The position numbers and the translations under genes are program-made. Shown piece by piece: positions 4,434-17,917 of a stretch of 42,297 nt of DNA. Within the stretch, counting starts at the first letter, position 1. Every line of letters begins with the position of its first letter. This DNA comes from an uncultured Pseudomonadota bacterium (lineage in GTDB: Bacteria > Pseudomonadota > Gammaproteobacteria > Burkholderiales > Methylophilaceae), in contig CAIRXI010000116.1 in the NCBI GenBank assembly GCA_903882525.1, positions 1-42,297 on the forward strand, given 5' to 3'. The notes under the pieces are model-generated. The model made no database searches and was not told where the DNA came from. It was given only the letters and a program-made list of their open reading frames with translations.

Positions 4434-5489
4434 ATGTTAAACCCTGAGTTAACCCCCACAAAAGGTTGTGCTGAAACAGTCATACAAACGACTAAGATTT
4501 CTGTGTGTACCTCAGCGCGATTACATATGGGGTTTTTTGACTTGAACGGCGGGTTAGGGCGGAAGTTTGGTGGTATTGGACTTGCGCTAGATGCGCCGCA
4601 ACTAGCATTAATCGCCAGTGCTAGTGAAACATCAGCACCATTATTGATTACAGCGTTAGGTGATGCTAACGCGTCCGTTGTTGCTAAGGCTACAAAGATT
4701 GCCAGTCAAATGATGACGCAATTGAAAATTAAAGGCCATTTGCACTTACATGTTGAGCAACACATTGCTGAGCACGCGGGCTTAGGTTCTGGCACACAAT
4801 TGGCTTTAGCCATTGGGAGTGCTATTAGTCATCTTTATCATCTCAACTTAACCACCTTGCAAATTGCACAACTGACTGGTCGTGGCGCACGCTCTGGTAT
4901 CGGCATTGCTGCTTTTAACGATGGTGGCGTTCTAGTCGATGGTGGGCGTGCTGTGGACGCGACGATAACTTCTAAGTTACCACCCTTACTGGCTCGCTAT
5001 GATTTTCCTGACGCATGGCGAGTTTTATTGATTTTAGATAGCAGTTTTCCGGGTATTCATGGTGAAGAGGAGCGCTCGGCTTTTAATCAGTTGCCAGAAT
5101 TTTCTGCAAACTTGGCTGCACATTTGTGTCGGCACGTATTGATGCAAGCGATGCCAGCTTTAGTCGAGCAGGATTTAACCGCATTTGGTCATAGTATTCA
5201 AGAATTACAAATGCATGTGGGTGATTATTTTTCACCTGTGCAAGGCGGCCGCTATGCCAGCCCGTTGGTAGCAAATGTACTTCAGCATTTACATCACATG
5301 GGTGTTGCCTGTTTTGGGCAAAGCTCATGGGGTCCAACCGGTTTTGCGGTTTTTGAAACCGATGAGGCAGCTCAAGCACACTTACAGCAACTCCAATCTA
5401 AATTTAGTGATTCAGCCCTAAGTTGGATGGTCTGCGGTGGGCGTAATCATTCGGCAATAATCAAATCTTTACCTTTGAAAGAAGCTTAA
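4434..5489 (+). CDS. Beta-ribofuranosylaminobenzene 5'-phosphate (beta-RFAP) synthase
   Basis: This protein of 351 residues has the GHMP-kinase-like fold of beta-RFAP synthase. Key segments are SARLHMGFFDLNGGLGRKFG, the glycine-rich loop AGLGSGTQLALAIG and TGRGARSGIGIAAFNDGG. The enzyme condenses p-aminobenzoate with PRPP, releasing CO2 and pyrophosphate, and is the committed step of methanopterin synthesis. It corresponds to MptG of methanogens and to the gene called orf4 in methylotroph H4MPT islands. It is first in a plus-strand operon, with mtdB starting 5 bases after its stop. The residues before VCTSARLHMG look dispensable, so the exact start is less certain than the identity. pabB, which helps make the aminobenzoate substrate, is encoded about 10 kb downstream. 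Confidence 0.93.
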   Translation: MLNPELTPTKGCAETVIQTTKISVCTSARLHMGFFDLNGGLGRKFGGIGLALDAPQLALIASASETSAPLLITALGDANASVVAKATKIASQMMTQLKIKGHLHLHVEQHIAEHAGLGSGTQLALAIGSAISHLYHLNLTTLQIAQLTGRGARSGIGIAAFNDGGVLVDGGRAVDATITSKLPPLLARYDFPDAWRVLLILDSSFPGIHGEEERSAFNQLPEFSANLAAHLCRHVLMQAMPALVEQDLTAFGHSIQELQMHVGDYFSPVQGGRYASPLVANVLQHLHHMGVACFGQSSWGPTGFAVFETDEAAQAHLQQLQSKFSDSALSWMVCGGRNHSAIIKSLPLKEA

Positions 5490-5494
5490 ATTTT

Positions 5495-6394
5495 ATGGAA
5501 AAAGTTAGTATTTTGCACTTAATTACCGCGTCCAAAAATGCTAGTCCATTTGATGTGAATATGGGGTATGACGCAGGTTTTGATAAGGTAGTGTCGTACA
5601 CCAATGTGGCCCTAGATGAAGTGGTTGGGCTTACGCAGGACGCAATTTTTTCACGCAGCCCTTCTGGCATCAAGCGCGAGGGGATATTTATTGGTGGGCG
5701 CGATATTGATCTGGCGATGCAGATGTTGAATTTAAGTAAAGGCGTAATGTTTAGCCCATTTACTTGTTCCGTATTTGCCGATCCATCGGGTGCGTTTACT
5801 ACGGCGGCGGCAATGGTGGCTAAGGTTGAATTTCATCTTCATAAACACTTTGGATTAGATCTTAGTGGAAAAACCTTGAGCGTCTTTGGTGCCAACGGCC
5901 CCGTGGGTAGTTGCGCTGCCATTATTGCTGCGCTACAAGGCGCAACTGTTCAATTAGTAGCGCATCGAGCAATAGCTGAGCTTGAACAAAAAGTCTTGGC
6001 TTGGAATACGCAGTTTCAAATTAACCTGCAAGTCGTGGATGGAAGCTCAGAACCAGCAAAAAAACAGGTGCTGGAATCTACAGAGATTGCGCTATGCGCG
6101 GCTGCGGCTGGTGTACAGGTGCTAAGCGTAAATCATTTATCGGTAGCCAAACAATTAAAAATTGTGGCCGACGTTAATGCCGTGGCGCCATTAGGTGTCG
6201 CTGGGATATTGGTCAGTGCAGATGGCGTAAAGATTGAAGCAAGTGTGGCTTACGGCATAGGCGCTATGGCCATAGGCTCGCTTAAATATATAACGCAACA
6301 ACAATTGCTCCAGCAAATGTTAAGCGCAGATAAGCCACAGATGTTTGAATTTATGGCAGCTTTTAAATTGGCGACCGCATTATTAAACCATTAA
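5495..6394 (+). CDS. mtdB: NAD(P)-dependent methylene-tetrahydromethanopterin dehydrogenase
   Basis: This protein of 299 residues begins with ILHLITASKNASPFDVNMGYDAGFD-type residues characteristic of the Mtd family. Its Rossmann nucleotide-binding loop is FGANGPVGSCAA at about residue 130. It oxidises methylene-H4MPT to methenyl-H4MPT in the cytoplasm, using NAD or NADP. This is the step before Mch, encoded two genes later. Its place between beta-RFAP synthase and an ATP-grasp gene matches the mtdB neighbourhood described in other methylotrophs. This favours MtdB over the paralogous, NADP-specific MtdA. Cofactor preference cannot be read from the sequence alone. Its end overlaps the probable start of the next gene. 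Confidence 0.94.
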   Translation: MEKVSILHLITASKNASPFDVNMGYDAGFDKVVSYTNVALDEVVGLTQDAIFSRSPSGIKREGIFIGGRDIDLAMQMLNLSKGVMFSPFTCSVFADPSGAFTTAAAMVAKVEFHLHKHFGLDLSGKTLSVFGANGPVGSCAAIIAALQGATVQLVAHRAIAELEQKVLAWNTQFQINLQVVDGSSEPAKKQVLESTEIALCAAAAGVQVLSVNHLSVAKQLKIVADVNAVAPLGVAGILVSADGVKIEASVAYGIGAMAIGSLKYITQQQLLQQMLSADKPQMFEFMAAFKLATALLNH

Positions 6395-6408
6395 TTCTAG
6401 TCATTGCA

Positions 6409-7518
6409 TTGTCGGCACGGCCTTTTGTAGAGGCGGCCCAGCGTGCCGGTTATCGTGTTACTGCAATTGATGCTTATGCAGATGCGGAAACTTTGGCCTT
6501 AGCTGAACTTTCCGTAGCTGTGGCTTGCGATCAGCAGGGGTTTAATGCAAAAGCACTATTGACTGCTATCAATGGCTTGGATGCTAGTCAGTATTTAGGA
6601 TTTGTTTACGGCAGTGGTTTAGAGGCGCAACCAGAACTACTCCAAAAAATCTCTACTAAGATACCTTTACTCGGGAACACTGCCGCTACAGTAGCTAAGA
6701 TCAAAACAGCTTTTAGTTTCTTTGCCAGCTTACAGCAACTTAACATTCCTTTTCCTAACGTTGTTGAGTGCCTTCCTGAAGCGCCTAAACAGCGTTACTT
6801 GAAAAAATTTGCTGCAGGTAACGGTGGTACCCATATCAGTTGGGTTAAAAAAGCCAGCCAATCGTTAGGGTCAAACTGTTATTACCAAGAGCATATCAGC
6901 GGATGCTCTGTATCATTATTGTTTTTGGCAGACGGCAATTCAGTCGAAGTTGTTGGTTTTAATGAGCAGTGGTTGTCTCCTAGTGTAGCCATGCCATTTC
7001 GTTATGGCGGTGCGGTAAGTCAGCTTCACTTAGCCACTGACATCCAACAGCAACTTATTTCATCAGCCCAGAAAATAACGTTGACGTATGGTTTACTCGG
7101 TTTAAATAGTCTGGATGCCATTGTTTCTGAAGACATTGTCTATATACTTGAAATTAATCCAAGATTAAGTGCCACGGTTGGTTTGTATGCTGAATTCAAT
7201 CTTTTGCAGCGGCATATATTAGCTTGTTTAGGGCAGTCGACAAGCGTTGCGATGAGCGTTAAAGAGGCCTCGGCTCATGCTATCGTCTACGCGCCTGCTG
7301 AGTTGATAATTACTAAGGGCTTGGCATGGCCCGATTGGGTTGTTGATATCCCTGATATAACAAATAAAAATGCAGTAATTAAAGAGGGTGACCCAGTTTG
7401 TTCGGTTGTCTCACAGTCCGCAGATGCAGAAAGTGCCAAGCAACTTGTTCAAACTCGCGTTAAACTGATACAGCAGTTATTAGAAGCTCATAGAGGAACC
7501 CATGTCCAACAACGCTGA
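6409..7518 (+). CDS. ATP-grasp ligase of the OrfY/MyfA type (methylofuran glutamate ligase)
   Basis: This ATP-grasp protein has a C-terminal metal/ATP-binding block, YILEINPRLSATVGLYAEF. Its position between mtdB and mch matches orfY of methylotroph H4MPT islands. OrfY was renamed MyfA in Methylorubrum extorquens because the mutant accumulates methylofuran with too few glutamates. The coordinates given start at a TTG. That start would cut the first beta strand, because the frame continues upstream as LILVIALSARPFVEAA. No ATG, GTG or TTG exists between the in-frame stop at 6364 and the TTG at 6409. The likely true start is therefore an ATT at 6382, overlapping the end of mtdB by 13 bases. mch overlaps its 3' end by 17 bases. 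Family placement is sure; the glutamate-ligase role is inferred from synteny. Confidence 0.82.
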   Translation: MSARPFVEAAQRAGYRVTAIDAYADAETLALAELSVAVACDQQGFNAKALLTAINGLDASQYLGFVYGSGLEAQPELLQKISTKIPLLGNTAATVAKIKTAFSFFASLQQLNIPFPNVVECLPEAPKQRYLKKFAAGNGGTHISWVKKASQSLGSNCYYQEHISGCSVSLLFLADGNSVEVVGFNEQWLSPSVAMPFRYGGAVSQLHLATDIQQQLISSAQKITLTYGLLGLNSLDAIVSEDIVYILEINPRLSATVGLYAEFNLLQRHILACLGQSTSVAMSVKEASAHAIVYAPAELIITKGLAWPDWVVDIPDITNKNAVIKEGDPVCSVVSQSADAESAKQLVQTRVKLIQQLLEAHRGTHVQQR

Positions 7519-8518
7519 TATTGCATCAACCCTAGTGCTAACGCCAGCTCATTTAAGTGTCAATCAGCTCAGTGCGCCTTTGGTACGCCATTTGGTGCAA
7601 CAGGCTGAGGTGTTGCAGGTGGGGGTGTCACAGCATGAATCAGGCTGCACTATGATTGATGCCGGAATTGTACATTTGGGCAGTGTGGAGGCCGGGCGGT
7701 TGATTGCTGAAATTTGCATGGGAGGGCTTGGTGATGTGCGTACGCTCCCTAAGCATAACTTTGCCGACCATCAATTCAACTTCATCAATGCAGGGAGTAT
7801 TAGTGTCAGCTCTAAAAACCCTGTACTGGCTTGTTTAGCCAGTCAATATGCCGGCTGGGCATTAAGTCATGAAAAGTTCTTTGCCTTAGGTTCAGGCCCA
7901 GCGCGCGCTTTGGCCCAGCGTGAAGATTTGTTTCAGGAGTTGCAATACCTTGATGCGGCACCTAGCACCTGTATTGTGTTGGAAACTGGGAAAATTCCGC
8001 CACCAGAGGTGATAGAGAAAGTACTTCGGGACACACAAGTCACACCTGAAAATTTAACGATTATTTTAACGCCCACTACTAGTATTGCCGGTGTGGTGCA
8101 AATTGTGGGACGCGTACTGGAAGTGGCGCTTCATAAAGCACACGCGCTACATTTTCCATTAGGGCAGATTGTTAGCGGCACAGGTGTAGCGATTATTCCG
8201 CCAGTATCAACTGACTTTATGTCGGCGATGGGTCGCACCAACGATGCCATCTTGTTTGGTGGGCATGTGCATCTGCAGGTGACCGGTAGCGATGAGGCCG
8301 CAGCAGAATTAGCCAAGAATTTACCTAGTTGCGCCTCTAAAGATTACGGTAAGCCGTTTGCAGAAATATTTAAATCCTACAACATGGACTTTTACTTAAT
8401 TGACCCATTGTTATTTTCACCTGCCAAGGTGACGATAATCAATTTAGACACTGGTCATGTATTTGAGGGTGGACAGTTAAACGCTGAGTTGATCGCGCTG
8501 TCATTTTCTAAGTCTTAA
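7502..8518 (+). CDS. mch: Methenyl-tetrahydromethanopterin cyclohydrolase
   Basis: This protein of 338 residues matches Mch throughout, including IDAGIVHLGSVEAGRLIAEIC, PVLACLASQYAGWAL, GSGPARAL and GRTNDAILFGGHVHL. It hydrolyses methenyl-H4MPT to N5-formyl-H4MPT in the cytoplasm, directly after MtdB in formaldehyde oxidation. The formyl group is then passed to methylofuran by the Fhc complex, whose genes are not in this window. The ATG at 7502 has an AGAGGAA ribosome site and lies inside the end of OrfY, which suggests translational coupling. The next gene starts 26 bases after its stop. Confidence 0.96.
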   Translation: MSNNADIASTLVLTPAHLSVNQLSAPLVRHLVQQAEVLQVGVSQHESGCTMIDAGIVHLGSVEAGRLIAEICMGGLGDVRTLPKHNFADHQFNFINAGSISVSSKNPVLACLASQYAGWALSHEKFFALGSGPARALAQREDLFQELQYLDAAPSTCIVLETGKIPPPEVIEKVLRDTQVTPENLTIILTPTTSIAGVVQIVGRVLEVALHKAHALHFPLGQIVSGTGVAIIPPVSTDFMSAMGRTNDAILFGGHVHLQVTGSDEAAAELAKNLPSCASKDYGKPFAEIFKSYNMDFYLIDPLLFSPAKVTIINLDTGHVFEGGQLNAELIALSFSKS

Positions 8519-8544
8519 ATGTTAATTGATATCAACGTGGCATT

Positions 8545-9438
8545 TTGAGAGTTCCTATATTCACAGATGATGCTGGCTGGCATGGTGAGCAGTTAAAGCT
8601 AGCTTTTGCCGAACGAGGTGTTGAAGCGATATTTGTTTCTTTGCAGAGCTGTAGCCTAGATATGTCGGGCACTCAGGCTGTAGTTGAGATACCGGGATTT
8701 GAATATGGGCAATTACCTAAAGCCGTTTTTGTTCGCGGCATCGCCGGAGGCACTTTGCAGCAGGTGATTACACGCCTAAATATTCTGCATATACTTAGTA
8801 TGCTCGGTGTGCGAATTTACAATGACGTAAAGGCGATTGAGCGCACAGTAGATAAAACCATGACAAGCTTTTTGTTGCTTCATCATGGCGTGTCTACACC
8901 AGCAACGTGGGTATGTGAATCTAGGGCGCAGTTAGCGCAGATAAGGCTCAAGACTGAAAAAAGTAAGCAACAGTTGGTGCTTAAACCATTATTCGGTTCG
9001 CAAGGGCAGGGTGTCCGTAAGCTGTTGGCGGATGACGCTACGCCGGTGCCAATGCAGCAGTTCGTTGACGGTGTTTATTATCTGCAACAGTTAATCCACT
9101 CTGCCGAGGCGCCGCATGATTATCGAGTGTTTGTGATTGCAGGCCAGATCGTTGCTACGATGAAACGTGTCGGCCATGACTGGGTGAATAATGTGGCCGC
9201 AGGCGCTCGCTGCGAAGCTATAGAACCCAATGCAATCCTAAATCAGCTTGCCTTACAAGCTGCCAATGCACTCGAGATAGATTACTGTGGCGTGGATATT
9301 ATTCAGGCGGTAGGTGGTGAGTATTTGGTGTTGGAAGTAAATAGCATCCCCGCATGGAAGGGCTTGCAAAGCGTGACAGACGTCAATATAGCCAAGCTTT
9401 TAGTAGATGATTTTATGAGTAAGGTGAATACTAATTGA
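8545..9438 (+). CDS. RimK-like ATP-grasp ligase of the Orf5/MyfB type (methylofuran polyglutamate ligase)
   Basis: This protein of 297 residues has a RimK-type ATP-grasp fold. It shows VLKPLFGSQGQGVRKL in the ATP-binding half, DYRVFVIAGQIVATMKR in the middle and YLVLEVNSIPAWKGLQSVT at the catalytic end. Directly after mch, it occupies the orf5 position. Orf5 (MyfB) of Methylorubrum extorquens adds the long polyglutamate chain of methylofuran, so the same role is likely here. The start is the TTG at 8545 or the ATT just before it; no ATG fits and the ribosome site is weak. The gene overlaps orf7 through TGATG. Related RimK enzymes also modify methanopterin in archaea, so the substrate remains inferred. 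Confidence 0.82.
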   Translation: MRVPIFTDDAGWHGEQLKLAFAERGVEAIFVSLQSCSLDMSGTQAVVEIPGFEYGQLPKAVFVRGIAGGTLQQVITRLNILHILSMLGVRIYNDVKAIERTVDKTMTSFLLLHHGVSTPATWVCESRAQLAQIRLKTEKSKQQLVLKPLFGSQGQGVRKLLADDATPVPMQQFVDGVYYLQQLIHSAEAPHDYRVFVIAGQIVATMKRVGHDWVNNVAAGARCEAIEPNAILNQLALQAANALEIDYCGVDIIQAVGGEYLVLEVNSIPAWKGLQSVTDVNIAKLLVDDFMSKVNTN

Positions 9439-10283
9439 TGCGTAAGCAGTGGAGCGCAGCAACGTTGGCTGAAGCCTATCATTGGGCCTGTATGTCTGAA
9501 CTGCAGGCTTTAAAACCTGGGAATGTTCACATATTTGCCGATGGTCATGGCATGACCATACAGGATTTTTTCAAAAGTGCAGACGCAACTGCGTGGCTAA
9601 TTGCACAAGATCATATCGGTGTAGGCCAACGTATTTATCTTGCAGTTGAAGCCACGCAACAAGCCGTGGGTTTAAATACCAATTTAGGTTTAATCTTATT
9701 ATGTGCCCCGCTTATACATGCAGCCTTGCATGCAAATCATCAGCTCAGCTTTACTGAGAATTTGCAGGCGACATTGGCGCAATTGACGATTGATGATGCG
9801 CGCCTAGTAGCGAGGGCTATTGTCTTGGCACAACCAGCGGGACTGGGAAAAGTGGCGACGCACGATGTGAATGATCAGCCGAATGTTAGCTTATTGGCGT
9901 TGATGGTTGCGGCCCAAGAGCAAGATCGGATTGCCTGGCAATATGCCAATGCCTACCAAGATATATTGGGTTTCGGTTTGGTTCAATACACTACCGCAAT
10001 GTCGCGCTGGGATAATCGGGCGTGGGCTACCTGTGCCCTATATCTAAGTTTTTTGGCCTATCAGCCTGATAGTCACATCGTTAGAAAATACGGCATTAAG
10101 GTGGCGACAGAGGTGATGGTTGAAGCGCAAGCCCTAGAGATAGAGTTTAGTCTTTCCTCAAATCCAAAATTGGTGCAAAAGAAATTAAGAGCTTGGGATG
10201 CCTCTCTCAAAAGCCGAAATTTAAATCCAGGCACTAGCGCAGACTTAACAGTGGCTTGCTTACTAGCCAGTTGTTTGGTCTAA
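9438..10283 (+). CDS. CitG-like protein (Orf7), triphosphoribosyl-dephospho-CoA synthase family
   Basis: This protein of 281 residues belongs to the CitG family. It has LQALKPGNVHIFADGHGM near the N terminus, TNLGLILLCAPL at about residue 80, DVNDQPNVSLLALM, and a C-terminal LNPGTSADLTVACLLA. CitG makes the citrate-lyase prosthetic-group precursor by forming an alpha-ribosidic bond from ATP. No citrate lyase genes are nearby. Instead the gene ends the H4MPT operon, in the orf7 position, where its function is not settled. The ATG at 9438 overlaps the stop of the previous gene (TGATG) and is better than the TTG one codon earlier. A role in placing the alpha-ribosyl group of H4MPT is my inference from the chemistry. 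Confidence 0.82.
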   Translation: MRKQWSAATLAEAYHWACMSELQALKPGNVHIFADGHGMTIQDFFKSADATAWLIAQDHIGVGQRIYLAVEATQQAVGLNTNLGLILLCAPLIHAALHANHQLSFTENLQATLAQLTIDDARLVARAIVLAQPAGLGKVATHDVNDQPNVSLLALMVAAQEQDRIAWQYANAYQDILGFGLVQYTTAMSRWDNRAWATCALYLSFLAYQPDSHIVRKYGIKVATEVMVEAQALEIEFSLSSNPKLVQKKLRAWDASLKSRNLNPGTSADLTVACLLASCLV

Positions 10284-10323: not shown

Positions 10324-10352
10324 ACGACAGCTCATGAGTTTTAAGATATAAT
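10324..10352 (+). promoter_or_regulatory. Candidate sigma-70 promoter of tal
   Basis: A perfect -10 TATAAT (10347-10352) lies 17 bases after ACGACA (10324-10329), which matches four of six bases of the -35 consensus. This leaves a leader of about 100 bases before tal. The gap after the coenzyme operon supports an independent start of transcription. Confidence 0.5.
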
Positions 10353-10460: not shown

Positions 10461-11411
10461 ATGGCAAGTTTATTAGAGCAATTAAAGACCATGACTACAA
10501 TCGTGGCAGATACAGGCGATGTTGATGCAATCAAAAGCGTAAAGCCATATGATGCAACAACCAATCCATCTTTGATATTAAAAGCAAGTCAATTGCCATT
10601 ATATGCACCACTAATTGATGCTGCGATTGCTTATGCAAAAGCACAAGGTGGATCTAAAGAGCAGCAAATCGATAATGCTGCTGATAAATTAGCAGTATCA
10701 ATCGGCCAAGAAATCGTTAAAGAAGTGCCAGGTCGTATTTCAACTGAAGTTGATGCGCGCTTGTCATTCAATACGCCAGCGATGGTAGAAAAAGGTCGTA
10801 AACTAATTAAACTATACAACGATGCTGGCATCACTAATGACCGTGTATTGATCAAATTAGCAGCAACTTGGGAAGGCATTAAAGCCGGTGAAATATTAGA
10901 AAAAGAAGGTATCAATTGTAACTTAACATTGATTTTCGGTTTTGGCCAAGCGCGTGCCTGTGCTGAAGCAGGTGTATTTCTAATTTCACCTTTTGTTGGT
11001 CGTATTTTAGACTGGTATAAAGCAAAAACTGGCGAAACATACACATCAGAAACTGACCCAGGTGTAATTTCTGTTCGTGCAATCTATAAGTTCTACAAAG
11101 AGCATGGCTTTAAAACAGTGGTAATGGGGGCTTCATTCCGTAATATCGGTGAAGTGACAGCATTAGCAGGATGTGATCGTTTAACCATTGCGCCTAATTT
11201 ATTGCAAGATTTAGAAGCGACACAAGGCGATTTGCCTCGCTTACTCGTTGACGGCGGCGTTAAAGCAACTGCACCGGCTAAAATGAGCGAAAGCGAATTC
11301 CGTTTTGCATTAAATGAAGATGCAATGGCTACAGAGAAGCTTTCTGAAGGTATTCGTGGTTTTGTTGTTGATCAAAATAAACTAGAGGCGGCTTTAAGCG
11401 CAAAACTATAA
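10461..11411 (+). CDS. tal: Transaldolase (TalB type)
   Basis: This protein of 316 residues has the TalB-type length. [13 protein letters not shown] lies near the N terminus and [16 protein letters not shown] carries the Schiff-base lysine at residue 132. [18 protein letters not shown] and [12 protein letters not shown] follow. It transfers a dihydroxyacetone unit between sugar phosphates. In the RuMP cycle this regenerates ribulose 5-phosphate, the acceptor for formaldehyde. A near-ideal AGGAGG ribosome site sits 6 bases before the ATG, a TATAAT promoter lies upstream, and a hairpin terminator follows. Together they suggest a highly expressed single-gene unit. hps and phi come next. Confidence 0.97.
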
Positions 11412-11470
11412 TTACCAATTATTTTGTAATAAAACGGTAATCTAGCAGTATTAGAATTGACATATATTAG

Positions 11471-11502
11471 CTGGGCATTTACTATAAGTGTCCAGTTTTT
11501 TT
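11471..11502 (+). terminator. Intrinsic terminator of tal
   Basis: A 10-pair stem (CTGGGCATTT with AAGTGTCCAG, two G-T pairs) closes a 5-base loop and is followed by seven T. It ends tal transcription about 60 bases after the stop. Confidence 0.75.
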
Positions 11503-11548
11503 GTAGTATTGGAAATTGTAGGCGCTGCAATAAAAAGTGCTTTAAATT

Positions 11549-11576
11549 TTCACTAAAATAGCAATAAATCTGTAAT
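11549..11576 (+). promoter_or_regulatory. Weak candidate promoter of hps
   Basis: TTCACT (11549-11554) and TGTAAT (11571-11576) are spaced 16 bases apart, just downstream of the tal terminator. A promoter is required here because hps follows a terminator. These boxes are only the best match I could find. Confidence 0.3.
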
Positions 11577-11605
11577 ACCCTAATAATTATTTATCGGAGA
11601 GCACC

Positions 11606-12238
11606 ATGGCATTAACTCAAATGGCATTAGATTCATTAGATTTTGACGGTACAGTTGCTTTAGCAGCATTAGTAGCGCCTCATGTAGACATTCTTGAAAT
11701 CGGTACACCATGCATTAAGCATAACGGTGTTAAATTACTTGAAGTTTTACGCGCTAAATTCCCAAACAACAAAATCTTAGTTGACTTAAAAACTATGGAT
11801 GCTGGTTTCTACGAAGCTGAGCCATTCTACAAAGCTGGTGCAGATATCTGTACAGTTTTAGGTTGCGCTGACATTGGTACTATCAAAGGTGTAATTGATG
11901 TTGCTAACAAATACGGCAAAAAAGCTCAAGTTGATTTGATCAACGTTGCTGATAAAGCTGCTAAAACTAAAGAAGTTGTTGCTGCTGGCGCTCACATCAT
12001 TGGCGTTCACACTGGTTTAGATCAACAAGCTGCTGGTCAAACACCATTTGCTGACTTAGCTTTAGTTGCTGCTTTAGGTTTAAAAGTAGAAATCTCAGTT
12101 GCTGGTGGCGTTAAAGCTTCTACAGCTGCTCAAGTACGTGATGCTGGCGCAACTATCATTGTTGCTGGTGCTGCTATCTACGGTGCTGCTGATCCTGCTG
12201 CTTCTGCTGCAGAAATCACTGCTATCGCTCACGCTTAA
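11606..12238 (+). CDS. hps: 3-hexulose-6-phosphate synthase
   Basis: This protein of 210 residues is of the orotidine-decarboxylase/KGPDC barrel superfamily, with the Hps active-site strands DLKTMDAG, ADICTVLG, VDLINV and the phosphate-binding SVAGGVK. It condenses formaldehyde with ribulose 5-phosphate to hexulose 6-phosphate, the entry step of the RuMP cycle. The ATG at 11606 has a GGAGA ribosome site 5 bases upstream. Codon use is strikingly biased, with long runs of GCT alanine codons, unlike neighbouring genes. This is expected for one of the most abundant proteins of a methylotroph. A strong terminator follows before phi. Confidence 0.97.
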   Translation: MALTQMALDSLDFDGTVALAALVAPHVDILEIGTPCIKHNGVKLLEVLRAKFPNNKILVDLKTMDAGFYEAEPFYKAGADICTVLGCADIGTIKGVIDVANKYGKKAQVDLINVADKAAKTKEVVAAGAHIIGVHTGLDQQAAGQTPFADLALVAALGLKVEISVAGGVKASTAAQVRDAGATIIVAGAAIYGAADPAASAAEITAIAHA

Positions 12239-12282
12239 GTTAAGCGATTTCAATAAGTAATTATTGAGATGAGTAATAAAAG

Positions 12283-12316
12283 AATCCTGACTCAGTAATG
12301 AGTCGGGATTTTTTTT
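12283..12316 (+). terminator. Strong intrinsic terminator between hps and phi
   Basis: A 12-pair stem (12283-12294 with 12299-12310, one G-T pair) with loop GTAA runs into eight T. It separates hps from phi and should reduce readthrough. Confidence 0.88.
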
Positions 12317-12355
12317 GATATTATTCAATCGTTGCCCACTATTAAAGGAAACATC

Positions 12356-12892
12356 ATGGATCATCAAAAACTAATTCTTGATAGACTAACTACTATCTTG
12401 TCTGAAACAGATAACAGCAATGCAGCTAAATTAATTAAGCTGGTTGATGGCGCAGGTCGTATTTTTGTTGGCGGAGCTGGTCGTTCAGGCTTGGTTTCAC
12501 GTTTTTTTGCTATGCGTTTAGTGCACAGTGGATACAAAGTTAGCATGGTCGGCGAAATTGTTACACCTAGCATTCAAGCTGGTGATTTATTCGTTGTCAT
12601 TTCAGGTTCTGGCGGTACAGAAACACTAATGCCTTTGCTTAAGAAAGCTAAATCTATGGGCGCAAAAATCGCTGTTATTTCAATGAAAGCCAAATCTGCA
12701 ATGTCAGAGTTGTCTGATTTGAATGTACAAATCGGTAATGACAATAGCTTTCCAGCTACGATTGGTATGCCAATGGGTTCACAGTTTGAATTGTCAACAT
12801 TGGTGTTCTTAGAGGCGGCGATTGCTGACATCATGGCAGCTAAAGGCTTAACCGAAGAAGGTATGCGCGCAATTCATGCCAACTTAGAGTAA
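12356..12892 (+). CDS. phi: 6-phospho-3-hexuloisomerase
   Basis: This protein of 178 residues is a single SIS (sugar isomerase) domain with RIFVGGAGRSGLVSRFFAMR, the SIS core VVISGSGGTETLM and the closing MPMGSQFELSTLVFLE. It isomerises hexulose 6-phosphate to fructose 6-phosphate, the second RuMP step, completing formaldehyde fixation begun by Hps. The ATG at 12356 is chosen because AAAGGAA lies just upstream. An upstream in-frame TTG at 12332 lacks a ribosome site and lies close to the hps terminator. Only about 40 bases separate that terminator from the ATG. phi may therefore depend on readthrough from hps. Its own terminator follows at 12911. Confidence 0.96.
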   Translation: MDHQKLILDRLTTILSETDNSNAAKLIKLVDGAGRIFVGGAGRSGLVSRFFAMRLVHSGYKVSMVGEIVTPSIQAGDLFVVISGSGGTETLMPLLKKAKSMGAKIAVISMKAKSAMSELSDLNVQIGNDNSFPATIGMPMGSQFELSTLVFLEAAIADIMAAKGLTEEGMRAIHANLE

Positions 12893-13041: not shown

Positions 13042-13722
13042 CTAACTGGGGTTTAGATTTCCATTATGTAATGCTGTAGCTACTAGGGCTCCGCTAATGG
13101 ATAGGGTTGCAAGTTGTTCTAAGTCTGCGTTATGTCTAATGCCTCCAGCTGCAAAAATCTGCTTATTGCCGGCTTGCTGCTTAATGACTTCTAAGCGTTG
13201 AGTGGCTGGTCCCTGTTCGCTGCCAACCTGCTTTAATTCCATGACGATGATTTTATCAGGCCAATAATTGGTTTGAATTTCTAACTCTGGGTAGCCTACA
13301 AAGCCGTTTTGATTAAAGTCGAGTGATAGGACGAACTTCCCAGCTAAATTTTCCCTGATAGCAATGAAGTCAGTGGCTGTCGTGATGTTTTCGCTACCGA
13401 TGACGTGGGTTAAGTTTAATGATTTCCAAGTACTGAGCGCCTCGACATTGCTAATGCCCGCATCCAGCCATATTTCTAGGTCTGGATAGTGCGCTTGAAT
13501 CTGCAGAATTATATCTAAATGATGACCTAACCCCTTAATTGCATCAAGGTCGGCAATATAGAGCCGCTTGAATGGGTATAATTCCAAAAGAGCCTCGACG
13601 ATAGCGCTTGGCGCGCTGGATTTACATAAAATTGACTGTACAGGCAAATAATGCTGTCGAAGCCCTAAGCGCGCATGCACGACATGACCATGCATTAAAT
13701 CTATGACGGGAATGATTTCCAT
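13042..13722 (-). CDS. HisA/HisF-related TIM-barrel protein, probable H4MPT/methylofuran biosynthesis
   Basis: This protein of 226 residues resembles HisA. It begins EIIPVIDLMHGHVVHARLG, with the first catalytic aspartate in IDL, and has a second in LSLDFNQNG. Phosphate-binding turns are DAGISN, FAAGGIR and ALVATALHNG. No histidine genes are near. A HisA/HisF-related family is known from methanogens and H4MPT-using bacteria beside coenzyme genes, and this protein fits it. Its reaction is not established to my knowledge. It is transcribed away from the Orf17-like gene, with only about 25 bases between the two likely starts. A true HisA is less likely because the length and C-terminal region differ, but this is not excluded. 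Confidence 0.75.
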   Translation of the reverse strand: MEIIPVIDLMHGHVVHARLGLRQHYLPVQSILCKSSAPSAIVEALLELYPFKRLYIADLDAIKGLGHHLDIILQIQAHYPDLEIWLDAGISNVEALSTWKSLNLTHVIGSENITTATDFIAIRENLAGKFVLSLDFNQNGFVGYPELEIQTNYWPDKIIVMELKQVGSEQGPATQRLEVIKQQAGNKQIFAAGGIRHNADLEQLATLSISGALVATALHNGNLNPS

Positions 13723-13747
13723 TTTTCAGGTGCTTTGTGAGACTTTT

Positions 13748-14776
13748 TTGAAGATACTGTTGTTAGAATATATCACAGCTGGAGGTTTAAACAGCAAGCC
13801 ACTGCCAGCGTCACTATTACGCGAAGGACTCTTAATGCGCGAGGCATTGATTGCAGACCTGAACGCACTCGATAACATTGAAATTGTCACCACGATTGAC
13901 GCTAGATTAGACGCAAGTCATCTAACTGCAGCATCTACGTTAGCTATTGATGCCAGCGCCAACCCTTTTGAAATATGGCAAGTGCTCATCAAGACCTGTG
14001 ATGCTGCGCTTATTGTAGCGCCCGAATGCGATGGTATATTAAGCAAGCTAACGCACATGGTAGAAGTTAGTGGGGTTGTAAATTTAGGTTGTGCTCAATC
14101 TTCTGTGGATATTGCTAGTAATAAATATCACACTTTTATTGCCTTGAAGTCCGCTGGAATTATGACTATTCCCACTATGATGGCAGATGAATTTCTAACA
14201 CTAGGATTCAATGATACATTGTCATGGCAAGGCGATTATGTGCTAAAGCCAATTGATGGTGCTGGATGTGAGCAGACTATGTTATTTAAGAGCCAAGCTT
14301 CAGTGCACGACTGGTTAAGCCAAAATAATTGTCAAAATCAGGGTTATATCGTTCAGCCTTTTCAAGAAGGAACTCCGGCCAGTATGTCAATGCTATGCCG
14401 TGATGGCCAAGTCTGGCTTTTAAGTTGTAATCAGCAAAATATGGTCATGACAGAGTCGCAACATCTGAAACTCGTAGGCGTGATTGTTAATGGATTAAGT
14501 GAGAAACGTGCTGACTTTGAACGATTGTCCGACCGAATTGCCTTGGCGATGCCGACGCTTAATGGCTACGTAGGCGTTGACGTGATATTGAATGAGAATG
14601 AGTTTATTGTGGTGGAAATTAACCCTAGAATTACCACCAGTTACATTGCGTTAAGTGAGTCTTTGGGGTGTAATCCAATGCGCATGATGTTAGATTTGGC
14701 TGATGCAAAGACGTTGGCATTTACTTTACCTAACAACATGTCGCATAAGTCCGTGAACCTGAGTTTAAATGAATAA
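13748..14776 (+). CDS. ATP-grasp ligase of the Orf17/MfnD type
   Basis: This ATP-grasp protein starts at the TTG 13748 as MKILLLEYITAGGLNSKPLP. That opening resembles archaeal tyramine-glutamate ligase relatives. GDYVLKPIDGAGCEQTML contributes to ATP binding and FIVVEINPRITTSYIALSE to metal binding. In Methylorubrum extorquens orf17 is essential for methylofuran. By family it should join the first glutamate to tyrosine or tyramine. The longer frame from the ATG at 13703 would overlap the divergent HisA-like gene and adds residues with no match to the fold. It overlaps the next gene by 8 bases. Orf17 identity is inferred from sequence type and context. Confidence 0.75.
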   Translation: MKILLLEYITAGGLNSKPLPASLLREGLLMREALIADLNALDNIEIVTTIDARLDASHLTAASTLAIDASANPFEIWQVLIKTCDAALIVAPECDGILSKLTHMVEVSGVVNLGCAQSSVDIASNKYHTFIALKSAGIMTIPTMMADEFLTLGFNDTLSWQGDYVLKPIDGAGCEQTMLFKSQASVHDWLSQNNCQNQGYIVQPFQEGTPASMSMLCRDGQVWLLSCNQQNMVMTESQHLKLVGVIVNGLSEKRADFERLSDRIALAMPTLNGYVGVDVILNENEFIVVEINPRITTSYIALSESLGCNPMRMMLDLADAKTLAFTLPNNMSHKSVNLSLNE

Positions 14777-15881
14777 ATCAACCCAATTTAACCGTACGAT
14801 AGGCTGGGATGTTGGTGGAGCCCACCTTAAAGCTGCGCTGCTTGATACCAATGGTGCGCTGTTGCAAGTGCTACAAGTGCCGTGTGCGTTATGGCGAGGT
14901 TTACCTGAATTAGATGCCGCAATAGATATGGTACTCAATCATTTTGAGGTAAAAACTGCATTACATGCGATTACCATGACAGGTGAACTGGTCGATATAT
15001 TTGCTAATCGTGAGGCGGGAGTAAACGCTATTAGTGCTTTGATGGATGCAAAATTAAACGGTGTTAAACTATTTTTTAGTGGCGCCAGAACCCTCGCTGA
15101 TTCTTCATGCTTTTTAATATTGTCTGAGGTATCTCAATCTTGGCACAGTATTGCTTCTGCAAACTGGCTGGCCAGCGCTTATTTTAGCGCGCATCGGTTA
15201 CAAACCTTAAAAAATTGTAATTATGCTTTATTGGTTGATATTGGAAGTACCACCACTGATTTTGTGCCGATAATCAATGGTCAGCCATCTTGCTTAGGTT
15301 TTACTGACGCGACACGTATGCAATTTGAGGAGCTCGTTTATACTGGTGTTATTCGGACTCCACTGATGGCGCTAGCGCAACAAATAAGTTTTAACCTTGG
15401 TGCTACCAGCGTTGCCGCTGAATTTTTTGCAACTAGCGGGGATGTTTATCGATTAACAGGGGATTTGTTAGTGGCTGATGACATGGCAGAAACCGCGGAC
15501 GGCAAAGATAAATCCATATTCTCAAGCGCTAGGCGTATTGCGCGTATGGTTGGCCATGATGTTGAAGACGCTGATATGATCACTTGGAATCGACTTGCAG
15601 AAGCATTTAAAGAAAAACAGATTGAACGCTTAACTGAGGTGACAATGGTGCATCTAGACCGCATTGCTAACACTAGTAATGGGCGAGAAATTAGCATTAT
15701 CGGCGCTGGCGTAGGCCGTTTCTTGGTGAAACAAATCGCAGAAAAAATGCACCTCACTTATTTGGATGTCAGTGATTTGTTTAATTGCAATATAACGAAC
15801 GCTCAGCATTCCCAAGCAAGCGTTTGCTTGCCTGCGTATGCGATTGCCTGCCTAATTTATCAGCATGAGATTGCTGCATGA
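14769..15881 (+). CDS. H4MPT-linked C1 pathway protein, hydantoinase/oxoprolinase-like (MfnF-like)
   Basis: This protein of 370 residues has an actin-like ATPase fold. The first phosphate loop is GWDVGGAHLKAALLD and the second is ALLVDIGSTTTDFVPI at about residue 155. A C-terminal SIIGAGVGRFLVKQIAE completes the fold. It belongs to the hydantoinase/oxoprolinase-related family found only with H4MPT-linked C1 transfer. The archaeal member MfnF joins the activated furan to gamma-glutamyl-tyramine in methanofuran synthesis. The same step in methylofuran synthesis is likely here, with the kinase two genes downstream supplying the activated furan. Its ATG overlaps the preceding stop, and its TGA overlaps the pabB ATG. 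Confidence 0.82.
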   Translation: MNKSTQFNRTIGWDVGGAHLKAALLDTNGALLQVLQVPCALWRGLPELDAAIDMVLNHFEVKTALHAITMTGELVDIFANREAGVNAISALMDAKLNGVKLFFSGARTLADSSCFLILSEVSQSWHSIASANWLASAYFSAHRLQTLKNCNYALLVDIGSTTTDFVPIINGQPSCLGFTDATRMQFEELVYTGVIRTPLMALAQQISFNLGATSVAAEFFATSGDVYRLTGDLLVADDMAETADGKDKSIFSSARRIARMVGHDVEDADMITWNRLAEAFKEKQIERLTEVTMVHLDRIANTSNGREISIIGAGVGRFLVKQIAEKMHLTYLDVSDLFNCNITNAQHSQASVCLPAYAIACLIYQHEIAA

Positions 15882-17281
15882 GTTTTCTAAAATACCCCTT
15901 AAATTACCAGCCAGATAGTGTGCAGCTATTTGAACGTTTACGTCATCGGCCGTGGGCAATTTGGCTCGATAGTGGTCAACCAAATGGCCAATACGGGCGC
16001 TATGACATTTTGGTTGCTGATCCATTTATCACGATCACTACCAGAGAAACTTGCTTGGCTCAGCTCCCGAATGCATACACAGAAATTATGCAAGATGGCA
16101 AAGTGAGCTTGAGTGCTGAAGATCCATTTGTGATTCTTAATCGCCTGCTCGCCCCCTATCAGGTAGCGCAAACTTCGCTACCCTTTAGCGGAGGTGCGCT
16201 TGGATACTTTGGCTACGACTTAGGGAGAAAAGTTGAGGCTGTACTTAGTCACCCCATAGACCAAGCTGTATTGCCAGACATGATGGTGGGCATCTATGAT
16301 TGGGCAGTGGTGGTTGATCATCGGGAAAAAACTGCTTGTTTGGTTTCACACGGATTTCATCCTGAAACCCGCAATCAATGGGCAGAGTTATGCGCCTTAT
16401 TTGATGAGCCAGCAGTTGAGGTAAGTAGTTATTTTGCACTCACGTCCCCTATACGCAGCAATATGAATTTTGAGGAATACGCGCAGGCGTTTCATCAGGT
16501 TAAACACTATATTACTGAAGGTGACTGCTACCAAGTCAATCTAGCGCAACGATTTTCAGCGCAGGCTAAAGGTGATGGTTGGCTGGCATATCTAAAACTA
16601 CGGCAAATAAGCCCAGCGCCATTTATGGCTTATATGAATTTTGGTGCTATGCAGGTGCTTTCTGGCTCTCCTGAGCGATTTTTACAAGTGGTGGCTAACC
16701 ATGTAGAAACACGCCCGATTAAGGGCACACGCCCACGCTCTAAAGATGCTGTGCAAGATCAGCATTATGCTGCAGCGCTGCAAGCCAGTGTTAAAGATAA
16801 AGCGGAAAATCTGATGATTGTAGATTTATTGCGGAACGATATTAGCAAAAACTGCAAAACTGGATCGGTGAAAGCGGATAAGTTATTTCAGTTACAAAGC
16901 TTTGCCAATGTGCACCATTTGGTCAGTTTTGTGAGCGGTGTGTTGGAAGCGGGTAAAACAGCTATAGATTTACTGCGCGGTTGCTTTCCAGGCGGCTCTA
17001 TTACTGGAGCACCCAAATTAAGAGCGATGCAAATTATTGATGAATTAGAACCTAATCGACGGGGTGTTTATTGTGGCGCCATCGGCTATATCGGTTTTGA
17101 CGGTAATATGGACACCAATATAGCCATACGCACAGCAGTGTATGCCAATGGCGAAATCAGCTTTTATGCTGGTGGTGGCATTGTGGCTGACTCCGTACTA
17201 GATAAAGAATATGCTGAGACTTTGGATAAAGCCTCTAGCCTACTTGCGAGTTTGCAGTTTTTTCAAACGGATCAGGGTTAA
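15878..17281 (+). CDS. pabB: Aminodeoxychorismate synthase component I
   Basis: This protein of 467 residues is in the chorismate-binding family. The motif PIKGTRPRSK has lysine at residue 282, the nucleophile that separates PabB from anthranilate synthase, where the position is alanine. DLLRNDISKNC, GCFPGGSITGAPKLRAMQII and a closing YAGGGIVADS block follow. It converts chorismate plus ammonia to aminodeoxychorismate, the precursor of p-aminobenzoate. The ATG overlaps the previous stop by 4 bases, locking it into the coenzyme operon. It probably feeds both folate and the beta-RFAP synthase reaction of H4MPT. No pabA or pabC is present here. Confidence 0.93.
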   Translation: MSFLKYPLNYQPDSVQLFERLRHRPWAIWLDSGQPNGQYGRYDILVADPFITITTRETCLAQLPNAYTEIMQDGKVSLSAEDPFVILNRLLAPYQVAQTSLPFSGGALGYFGYDLGRKVEAVLSHPIDQAVLPDMMVGIYDWAVVVDHREKTACLVSHGFHPETRNQWAELCALFDEPAVEVSSYFALTSPIRSNMNFEEYAQAFHQVKHYITEGDCYQVNLAQRFSAQAKGDGWLAYLKLRQISPAPFMAYMNFGAMQVLSGSPERFLQVVANHVETRPIKGTRPRSKDAVQDQHYAAALQASVKDKAENLMIVDLLRNDISKNCKTGSVKADKLFQLQSFANVHHLVSFVSGVLEAGKTAIDLLRGCFPGGSITGAPKLRAMQIIDELEPNRRGVYCGAIGYIGFDGNMDTNIAIRTAVYANGEISFYAGGGIVADSVLDKEYAETLDKASSLLASLQFFQTDQG

Positions 17282-17284
17282 GCG

Positions 17285-17917
17285 ATGTGGGTGATTAAAC
17301 TAGGTGGTAGCTTGTTAGGCTCAGAGGAGCTTTCACACTGGCTAAATTTGATTGCCAAGCACGGCAATGGCCAGGTGGTGATTGTGCCTGGTGGTAGTGT
17401 ATTTGCTGACGCGGTGCGCGAGGCGCAGAAACGCTCAGGGGTTAATGATGCGGTAGCGCATCAGTTGGCGCTATTGGCCATGGATCAGTACGGACAATTA
17501 TTGGCGGCCATGAACCCAAACTTGGTGACGGCCAGTAGTGAGCTGGAGCTCGCTGAGTGTGGCTGGCAACATAAGGGTGTCATTTGGTTGCCCAGTCGCA
17601 TGGCATTAGCTGATGCTAGCATTCCAAAAAACTGGCAGCTAACCTCAGATAGTTTAAGTGCCTGGTTGGCCAACAAACTCGGTGCCGAACAGTTGGTGTT
17701 AGTGAAATCTAAAACCTTAAACACCTATCAAGCCTCCGCCACGGTGCAAACATTAGTGCATGATGATTTGATTGATAGCGAATTTCCAGACATGGCTAGC
17801 GGAGGCGTCTTTGACAGTTGGTTGTTACATAAAACTGATTATGCTGTGTTTGAGCAAGGTTTTCATGTAGCCCAGCTCAAAGAAAAAGCCTTGTTGGTCA
17901 ACAGCCCTATCAAGTAA
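17285..17917 (+). CDS. Amino-acid-kinase-fold protein (MfnE-like, methylofuran pathway)
   Basis: This protein of 210 residues is a short amino-acid-kinase fold. It has WVIKLGGSLLGSEEL at the start, VVIVPGGSVFADAVR, and a downstream LTSDSLSAWLANKLGAEQLVLVKS nucleotide-binding region. In archaea MfnE, of the same fold, phosphorylates aminomethylfuran phosphate to the diphosphate used by MfnF. The present gene is 3 bases after pabB and in the same operon as an MfnF-like gene, so the same reaction is a good inference. Direct evidence from the sequence covers only the kinase fold. It is the last gene of the operon and converges on rlmF. Confidence 0.75.
   Translation: MWVIKLGGSLLGSEELSHWLNLIAKHGNGQVVIVPGGSVFADAVREAQKRSGVNDAVAHQLALLAMDQYGQLLAAMNPNLVTASSELELAECGWQHKGVIWLPSRMALADASIPKNWQLTSDSLSAWLANKLGAEQLVLVKSKTLNTYQASATVQTLVHDDLIDSEFPDMASGGVFDSWLLHKTDYAVFEQGFHVAQLKEKALLVNSPIK

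Follow-up and report, generated by a model that had tools for sequence, protein, structure and literature searches.

Orf7, a CitG-family protein of a mixed tetrahydromethanopterin and methylofuran operon, as a candidate for the alpha-ribosyl step of tetrahydromethanopterin-type coenzyme biosynthesis

Methanogenesis uses tetrahydromethanopterin (H4MPT) as its one-carbon carrier, and most methylotrophic bacteria oxidise formaldehyde with the same carrier and methylofuran. Here, we describe orf7, a gene for a CitG-family protein with a proposed role in the biosynthesis of this type of coenzyme. It lies on a stretch of DNA of 42,297 nucleotides (contig CAIRXI010000116.1 of assembly GCA_903882525.1; “the window” below means this whole stretch) from an uncultured, methanol-using bacterium of the Methylophilaceae. 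The source genome (G000; 1.57 Mb, 200 contigs, 88% complete) has a single CitG-family match. In the window, orf7 closes a run of six genes on one strand (4434-10283), the first of which belongs to the ribofuranosylaminobenzene phosphate (RFAP) synthase family:

4434..5489, + strand: RFAP synthase family gene (mptG/orf4), operon gene 1; TIGR00144, 198 bits against a cut-off of 113.5
5495..6394, + strand: methylene-H4MPT dehydrogenase, MtdB-type; Pfam Mpt_N, 4e-34
6409..7518, + strand: ATP-grasp ligase, OrfY/MyfA-like (methylofuran); ATP-grasp_3, 4.9e-20; named by gene order and excerpts of PMC8141765
7502..8518, + strand: methenyl-H4MPT cyclohydrolase Mch; TIGR03120, 395 bits; PF02289, 5e-125
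8545..9438, + strand: RimK-like glutamate ligase, Orf5/MyfB-like (methylofuran); RimK, 2e-26; rimK_fam, 163 bits against a cut-off of 143
9438..10283, + strand: Orf7, CitG-family, proposed alpha-ribosyl (triphosphoribosyl) transferase of H4MPT-type coenzyme biosynthesis; PF01874, motifs, tree and co-occurrence

The open reading frame of orf7 spans 9435-10283 (+), and the ATG at 9438 gives a protein of 281 amino acids (coding 9438-10280). The gaps between successive genes are +5, +14, -17, +26, and -1 to -4 bases in operon order, and the following same-strand open reading frame begins at 10461. In a consensus scan, positions 10324-10352 resemble a promoter, and the 3' end of orf7 contains a weak, terminator-like hairpin, near chance level. 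Two of the neighbours fall short with other models: the RFAP synthase family gene scores 224 bits with the stricter equivalog NF040726 (below its cut-off of 328), and the RimK-like gene scores 192 bits with MptN_Meth (below its cut-off of 350) and takes its name from the gene order mch-orf5-orf7. Their families and the gene order identify the ATP-grasp and RimK-like genes as OrfY and Orf5. According to the part of PMC8141765 available to us, methylofuran stops at up to one glutamate in an orfY mutant and at two in an orf5 mutant, and the two proteins were renamed MyfA and MyfB as methylofuran polyglutamate ligases; its main text, to the same extent, makes no mention of Orf7. The first-pass annotation, made from the sequence alone, had placed Orf7 last in an H4MPT operon with RFAP synthase. 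It is indeed the last gene, with an RFAP synthase family gene first, but the operon is mixed, two of the other five genes being assigned to methylofuran. Because methylofuran ligases and H4MPT genes are mingled here, position alone cannot separate an H4MPT role from a methylofuran role.

The same annotation had called Orf7 CitG-like, and this is borne out over nearly the whole profile: Orf7 matches the Pfam CitG family (PF01874) at 1e-63 and 216 bits (cut-off 27), with residues 11-277 aligned to positions 1-283 of 284. Whole-length homology to CitG and MdcB, the 2-(5''-triphosphoribosyl)-3'-dephospho-CoA synthases, is also seen when a profile of 12 Orf7 sequences is compared with a profile of six CitG/MdcB sequences (251 columns aligned, E 5e-11), and a core of KPG, NT..G, D211 and PG..AD is common to both. 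The motifs of Orf7 are KPGN (26-29), NTNLG (80-84), D211 and NPGTSAD (263-269), and K26, P27, G28, G84, D211, G265, A268 and D269 are near-universal across the aligned rows. In other positions the two differ (counts leave out five unassigned rows, and group labels, here and in the tree, follow the phylum sampled or a guess). P91 and D163 are present in all 27 bacterial Orf7 rows and N29 in 26 of them, against none of the six CitG/MdcB rows; L83 (26/27) is replaced by K or R in all six, N263 (25/27) by S and T266 (26/27) by G, and position 82 is H in all six. In other words, the six read KPGL, NTH[KR]G and SPGG, and the signature NTH[KR]G plus SPGG is absent from Orf7, which has NTNLG and NPGT. 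Archaeal rows match Orf7 in part, with P91 and D163 near-universal and position 82 variable.

It might be supposed that Orf7 is an ordinary triphosphoribosyl-dephospho-CoA synthase acting for an unrecognised acyl-carrier protein, as its Pfam family and the database annotation of its relatives would suggest. However, Orf7 reaches 30.1 bits with the CitG equivalog model (cut-off 272.3) and 27.8 bits with that for MdcB (cut-off 282.35), failing both, whereas E. coli CitG and Azospirillum MdcB, used as controls, each pass their own model; it also lacks NTH[KR]G and SPGG and lies outside the CitG/MdcB clade described below. No lyase or carrier partner was found either: a tblastn search with CitC, CitD, CitE, CitF, CitX, MdcC, MdcD, MdcE and MdcG gave no match in the window at E 1e-3, in a test that likewise missed Orf7 with E. 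coli CitG and Azospirillum MdcB as queries. The earlier claim that citrate lyase partners are absent thus holds for the window, at the low sensitivity of this test. On score, motifs, tree and partners we rejected the identity of Orf7 with ordinary CitG/MdcB, and regard it as very improbable. Among solved structures, phmmer at E 1 matched no chain to Orf7 or to E. coli CitG, and the A3 profile matched chain 3h9p (“putative triphosphoribosyl-dephospho-CoA synthase”) at 2.8e-55.

A tree was built from 97 of 179 family sequences, with midpoint rooting and with bootstrap values that are unsettled. Apart from one row, the 27 bacterial Orf7 rows form a single clade (100/91), with a Caldisericota row nearby, and they fall inside a group of 45 rows (99/92) that also holds rows from the Methanobacteriaceae phylum, Hadesarchaea, Bathyarchaeota and Asgard archaea. 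The CitG/MdcB sequences make up a separate clade (100/100), whose branch measures 2.73. We regard Orf7 as a bacterial member of the archaeal-type part of the CitG family, in the same part of the tree as the CitG-domain proteins of methanogens, haloarchaea, Bathyarchaeota and Hadesarchaea.

The distribution of orf7 among genomes carries most of the argument. Within 143 gammaproteobacterial genomes, the source genome included, Orf7 is present in 21 and RFAP synthase in 22, with an overlap of 21 (phi 0.97), and none of the 121 RFAP-negative genomes has Orf7. For these counts, 24 genomes matched RFAP synthase, of which G054 (24.8 bits) and G057 (18.6 bits) were taken as negative; G028 (93 bits, partial, below the cut-off) was taken as positive. 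The single RFAP-positive genome that lacks Orf7 (G008) is 75% complete. By coordinates compared by eye, the two genes stand less than 5 kb apart on one contig in 18 of the 21 genomes and on separate contigs in G002, G070 and G096. Two genomes of just 1.1 Mb (G039 and G142; 98-99% complete) retain both genes, about 4 kb apart.

In the Archaea, the counts are of PF01874 matches, membership of the H4MPT type having been examined for the tree rows. Of the 121 genomes of the Bathyarchaeota phylum (that of G143), 87 matched RFAP synthase, 38 of them above the family cut-off of 113.5; the 49 with at least 80 bits were taken as RFAP-positive, and 38 matches of about 30 bits or less as negative. All 49 positives and the first 31 of the 72 negatives were scanned further, so that the proportions differ from those of the phylum. 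CitG was found in 46/49 RFAP-positive and 4/31 RFAP-negative genomes, DUF447 in 43/49 and 0/31, and MfnB in 14/49 and 4/31 (G175 and G244, with 37 and 40 bits, above the cut-off, were counted as having CitG, and G244, with 21 bits, below the cut-off, as lacking MfnB). In the Haloferax phylum (that of G144), 49 of 50 genomes have both RFAP synthase and CitG, G284 has neither, and MfnB is missing from nine; G286, where a contig end leaves only a fragment (49.6 bits), is among those taken as RFAP-positive. In the Methanobacteriaceae phylum (that of G145), RFAP synthase was found in 49 of 50 genomes, and the 30 scanned further gave RFAP synthase in 29, CitG in 30 and MfnB in 30. One CitG-family gene per genome is the rule (79 of 80 searched genomes), the match in G323 being split into two pieces. 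Among 14 named control genomes, RFAP synthase and DUF447 matched in M. jannaschii, H. volcanii, S. acidocaldarius and M. acetivorans only, CitG in these four archaea and E. coli, and MfnB in the two methanogens only. H. volcanii and G144 both have an RFAP-synthase homologue and CitG, with no MfnB.

Pooling the 160 archaeal genomes, CitG and RFAP synthase occur together in 124, CitG alone in five, RFAP synthase alone in three and neither in 28 (phi 0.84); for CitG and MfnB the corresponding numbers are 87, 42, two and 29 (phi 0.49). Fisher values for such tables ignore kinship and are not readable as probabilities. The first-pass annotation had proposed a phylogenetic profile of Orf7 against H4MPT genes as a check, and the profile supports a role in H4MPT-type coenzyme biosynthesis in preference to methylofuran or CoA, Orf7 and its relatives tracking RFAP synthase in both samples.

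The same counts bear on the possibility that Orf7 acts in methylofuran biosynthesis, like its immediate operon neighbours OrfY/MyfA and Orf5/MyfB, which were assigned to methylofuran in the part of PMC8141765 cited above. An association between CitG and MfnB does exist (phi 0.29 over 80 genomes and 0.49 over all 160), and four of the five archaeal genomes with CitG and without RFAP synthase (G171, G179, G187 and G145) have MfnB. Despite this association, the presence of CitG does not track MfnB, which is missing in 42 of the 129 CitG-positive archaeal genomes, and H. volcanii and S. acidocaldarius also have CitG without it. Forty-one of the 42 have RFAP synthase, and for this reason an H4MPT-type pathway is preferred over methylofuran. 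To our knowledge, moreover, neither methanofuran nor methylofuran contains ribose. We consider a methylofuran role improbable, and that Orf7 works in the biosynthesis of an H4MPT-type coenzyme highly probable.

The neighbourhoods of CitG-family genes in other genomes were compared next to that of the window. The first loci were the best 80 of 535 obtained with a haloarchaeal CitG query, and this set is therefore biased to haloarchaea. DUF447 lies within 0.6 kb of CitG in 59/59 haloarchaeal loci (L028-L083, L090, L096 and L104), 2/2 Hadesarchaea loci and 3/5 other archaeal loci, and also in 9/30 of the loci L154-L183, 6/30 of L196-L225 and 4/7 of L233-L239 (genomes partly shared with L196-L225); at this distance it was found in none of 20 gammaproteobacterial, eight named Bathyarchaeota/Thermoproteota, three Asgard and three other bacterial loci. 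RFAP synthase is also within 6 kb of CitG in three haloarchaeal loci. Two Hadesarchaea loci have CitG, DUF447, a flavoprotein gene and DUF6513, followed by RFAP synthase on the opposite strand, and two Bathyarchaeota loci have DUF6513, RFAP synthase and DUF447 opposite CitG. On methylotroph plasmids, DUF447, DUF6513, the flavoprotein gene and MfnB share a gene island with orf7. Thus, the archaeal genes often stand beside DUF447, RFAP synthase, DUF6513 or a nucleotidyltransferase gene, whereas bacterial orf7 is part of a mixed H4MPT/methylofuran operon without a nucleotidyltransferase. The “archaeal-like” cluster mch-orf5-orf7-fae of Methylosinus trichosporium carries the same gene, by order and family, and no difference was found; in the part of PMC3615186 available to us it is named only “Tetrahydromethanopterin-linked C1 transfer pathway protein, Orf7”.

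The nucleotidyltransferase neighbour is about 300-370 residues long and bears the signature GS..SD[ILV]D. Counting known duplicate loci of one genome once, it lies within 1.6 kb of CitG in 16 loci, in 14 of which it adjoins CitG; the 16 are L084, L087 (same genome as L158), L094, L095, L097, L099, L106, L157 (same genome as L229), L161, L167, L169, L171, L181 (same genome as L227), L230, L231 and L232. Examples are L097:10804-11847, L084:8876-9907 and L231:10269-11162, and the motif residues are invariant in 13/13 aligned members. In the Caldisericota locus L097, the gene is directly 3' of orf7 of the H4MPT operon; a second, divergent CitG-like paralogue (L097:13694-14761, -) lies near the same H4MPT cluster. 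Three tandem copies of the nucleotidyltransferase gene occur in L099, L106 and L229, and in L231 and L232 a gene for a DUF1464 protein (L231:11129-12052 and L232:11048-11959) overlaps the one beside CitG. No such gene was found within 1.6 kb of CitG in the 24 bacterial loci, in the 60 loci of haloarchaea, in 30 on the methanogen side, in 10 of Hadesarchaea, Asgard or other archaea, or in 23 of the 30 loci L154-L183; many of these loci have flanks of just 1.5 kb. It was also absent from 20 stretches (up to 19.5 kb) around RFAP synthase genes, whole methanogen genomes being outside this search, and from the window, in which Orf7 therefore has no neighbour of the kind that would match the two-step pairing of CitG with CitX or MdcG. 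A similar motif, GS..SD[IL]D, occurs in MdcG, which also matches Polbeta weakly (E 0.2). We considered whether MdcG and the archaeal nucleotidyltransferase are homologous and rejected this, since profile comparison aligns only the SDIDL motif (hhalign probability 7); the claim is thus of a motif in common, and not of a common family.

How might Orf7 contribute to the coenzyme? CitG and MdcB form an alpha-ribosidic bond, CitG using ATP with the loss of adenine, and H4MPT contains one alpha-ribosidic bond. The modified folates of Thermococcales are not known to carry the ribose phosphate. With the core KPG, G84, D211 and PG..AD common to the family with few exceptions, this likeness leads us to favour, with some reserve, the catalysis by Orf7 of the alpha-ribosyl step of the H4MPT-type pathway. 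The first-pass annotation had offered Orf7 as a candidate for the missing ribosyl transfer; co-occurrence upholds its place in the pathway, and the exact step, with its acceptor and donor, is still drawn from CitG chemistry. In the reaction envisaged, the deoxyribitol arylamine, whether free or attached to the pterin beforehand, would attack C1 of the ribosyl donor through its 5-hydroxyl and the leaving group would depart, giving an alpha-linked ribose with a 5-phosphate or 5-triphosphate. If the reaction resembles that of CitG, ATP would serve as donor and lose adenine, with inversion of configuration from beta to alpha. Since an inverting attack on a beta-nucleotide would yield an alpha-riboside in one step, whereas alpha-configured phosphoribosyl pyrophosphate (PRPP) would need retention, ATP is the donor that we would favour, and we put it forward tentatively, at less than even chances.

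CitX and MdcG join the triphosphate product of CitG and MdcB to a serine. In the same manner, a 5-triphosphate product of Orf7-like proteins would be ready for a nucleotidyltransferase to join 2-hydroxyglutarate. It can be speculated that the pathway ends in two steps like those of the citrate lyase prosthetic group: a CitG-like protein would transfer the 5-triphosphoribosyl moiety from ATP to the deoxyribitol in an alpha bond, a nucleotidyltransferase-fold partner of the GS..SD[ILV]D family would add 2-hydroxyglutarate with loss of pyrophosphate to give the phosphodiester, bacteria with dephospho-H4MPT would keep the first enzyme only, and haloarchaea and Sulfolobus would make a related coenzyme. 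As a whole, this scheme is rather unlikely. If “dephospho” in the term dephospho-H4MPT means loss of the phosphate end group only, a meaning that we found stated in no text, bacterial loci without the nucleotidyltransferase would fit that coenzyme.

The co-occurrence profile points to a pathway and not to a step, and Orf7 could instead carry out another step of the H4MPT-type pathway, for example at the 2-hydroxyglutarate/phosphate end group, or act on a different acceptor. For DUF447, a frequent neighbour in archaea, the structural matches are all to uncharacterised proteins (3b5m and 2ptf), which gives no hint of the adjacent step. The correspondence of the bond made by CitG/MdcB with that in H4MPT and the conserved core tell against this alternative, to which we give roughly one chance in a handful. 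As to the literature, a 2011 estimate put the proteins of H4MPT biosynthesis still unknown at seven (PMC3087415, seen in part). We found no paper linking CitG, triphosphoribosyl or ribosyltransferase to methanopterin, in a search that left out most subscription journals, where a prior assignment or an orf7 phenotype may be recorded.

Several observations weigh against the role that we favour for Orf7 and its archaeal relatives. The support comes from sequence, context and co-occurrence; a PF01874 match alone cannot tell the H4MPT type from citrate-lyase CitG; and the closest biosynthetic neighbours of Orf7 in the bacterial operon are the methylofuran ligases. In the tree, the CitG/MdcB clade is joined to seven rows of the Bathyarchaeota phylum, so that the archaeal-type proteins do not appear as one clade excluding CitG/MdcB. 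Four archaeal genomes (G157, G171, G179 and G187) have CitG without RFAP synthase or DUF447, three of them (G171, G179 and G187) with MfnB; G145 has CitG and MfnB without RFAP synthase, and G182, G206 and G226 are RFAP-positive without CitG. Because RFAP synthase, DUF447 and DUF6513 adjoin in the two Bathyarchaeota loci, a single missing contig could explain why the first two are absent together; against this, G171 and G179 have similar CitG regions and each lacks both genes. G157, G171 and G179 have the nucleotidyltransferase neighbour, and CitG of G157 is near genes for Mch and formylmethanofuran dehydrogenase. Weaker CitG matches (37 to 141 bits) without DUF447 are seen in G167, G175, G213, G244 and G262, several of which have a second RFAP-like gene. 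In addition, L29, as in CitG, is found in 15/38 rows of the Bathyarchaeota phylum (Thermoproteota-type), and the divergent homologues L231 and L232 lack G63, N80 and T81; these two come from G238 and G274, which were taken for Sulfolobales by a guess. On the chemistry, White's pathway, as cited in the part of PMC3334880 available to us, adds a second PRPP after the formation of RFAP; this counts in favour of a second ribosyl transfer, but makes the cited donor PRPP and not ATP. The coenzyme of M. extorquens is described as dephospho-H4MPT (PMC6193120 and PMC8153426, both in part); should this compound have no ribose, the proposal would not hold in bacteria.

A related objection is that the archaeal and bacterial proteins differ in function, and that co-occurrence with RFAP synthase in haloarchaea and Sulfolobus stems from a different modified folate, an explanation compatible with the other alternatives. 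H4MPT is established in methanogens, and rows from the Methanobacteriaceae phylum and from Hadesarchaea lie together with bacterial Orf7 in the tree, both of which tell against a difference in function, whereas the divergent homologues without core residues would fit it. Haloarchaea are also taken to use tetrahydrofolate, and HVO_2628 has been doubted as an RFAP synthase (PMC8305020, as far as its text is available to us), so that an RFAP match there may not mean H4MPT. We consider such a difference in function unlikely, slightly less so than a methylofuran role, and retain the view that Orf7 belongs to H4MPT-type biosynthesis.

Outside the operon, a second cluster (13042-17917) is assigned, from similarity, to the methylofuran side:

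13042..13722, - strand: HisA/HisF-like protein; TIGR00734, 126 bits, below the cut-off of 180
13703..14776, + strand: MfnD-like ATP-grasp protein (methylofuran side); NF040722, 138 bits, below the cut-off of 400
14769..15881, + strand: MfnF-like, H4MPT-linked C1 pathway protein (methylofuran side); TIGR03123, 310 bits against a cut-off of 244; MfnF, 140 bits, below the cut-off of 520
17285..17917, + strand: MfnE-like amino acid kinase (methylofuran side); NF040622, 83.7 bits, below the cut-off of 300; AA_kinase, 5e-13

By eye, the gene between the MfnF-like and MfnE-like genes is PabB-like, and the region beside the operon (10461-12892) holds look-alikes of transaldolase, hexulose-phosphate synthase and hexulose-phosphate isomerase.

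Given its family and the close co-occurrence of that family with RFAP synthase in the genomes searched, Orf7 is a good candidate for the unassigned enzyme that attaches the second ribose of methanopterin. The gene is common to genomes of the methanogen phylum and to methylotrophs, and its chemistry would fit a bond for which we found no assigned gene, so that part of the gap in the biosynthesis becomes a test of one gene. Haloarchaea may make an H4MPT-like coenzyme, and if they and Sulfolobus use the CitG-like gene too, the assumption that haloarchaea depend on tetrahydrofolate only would need re-examination.

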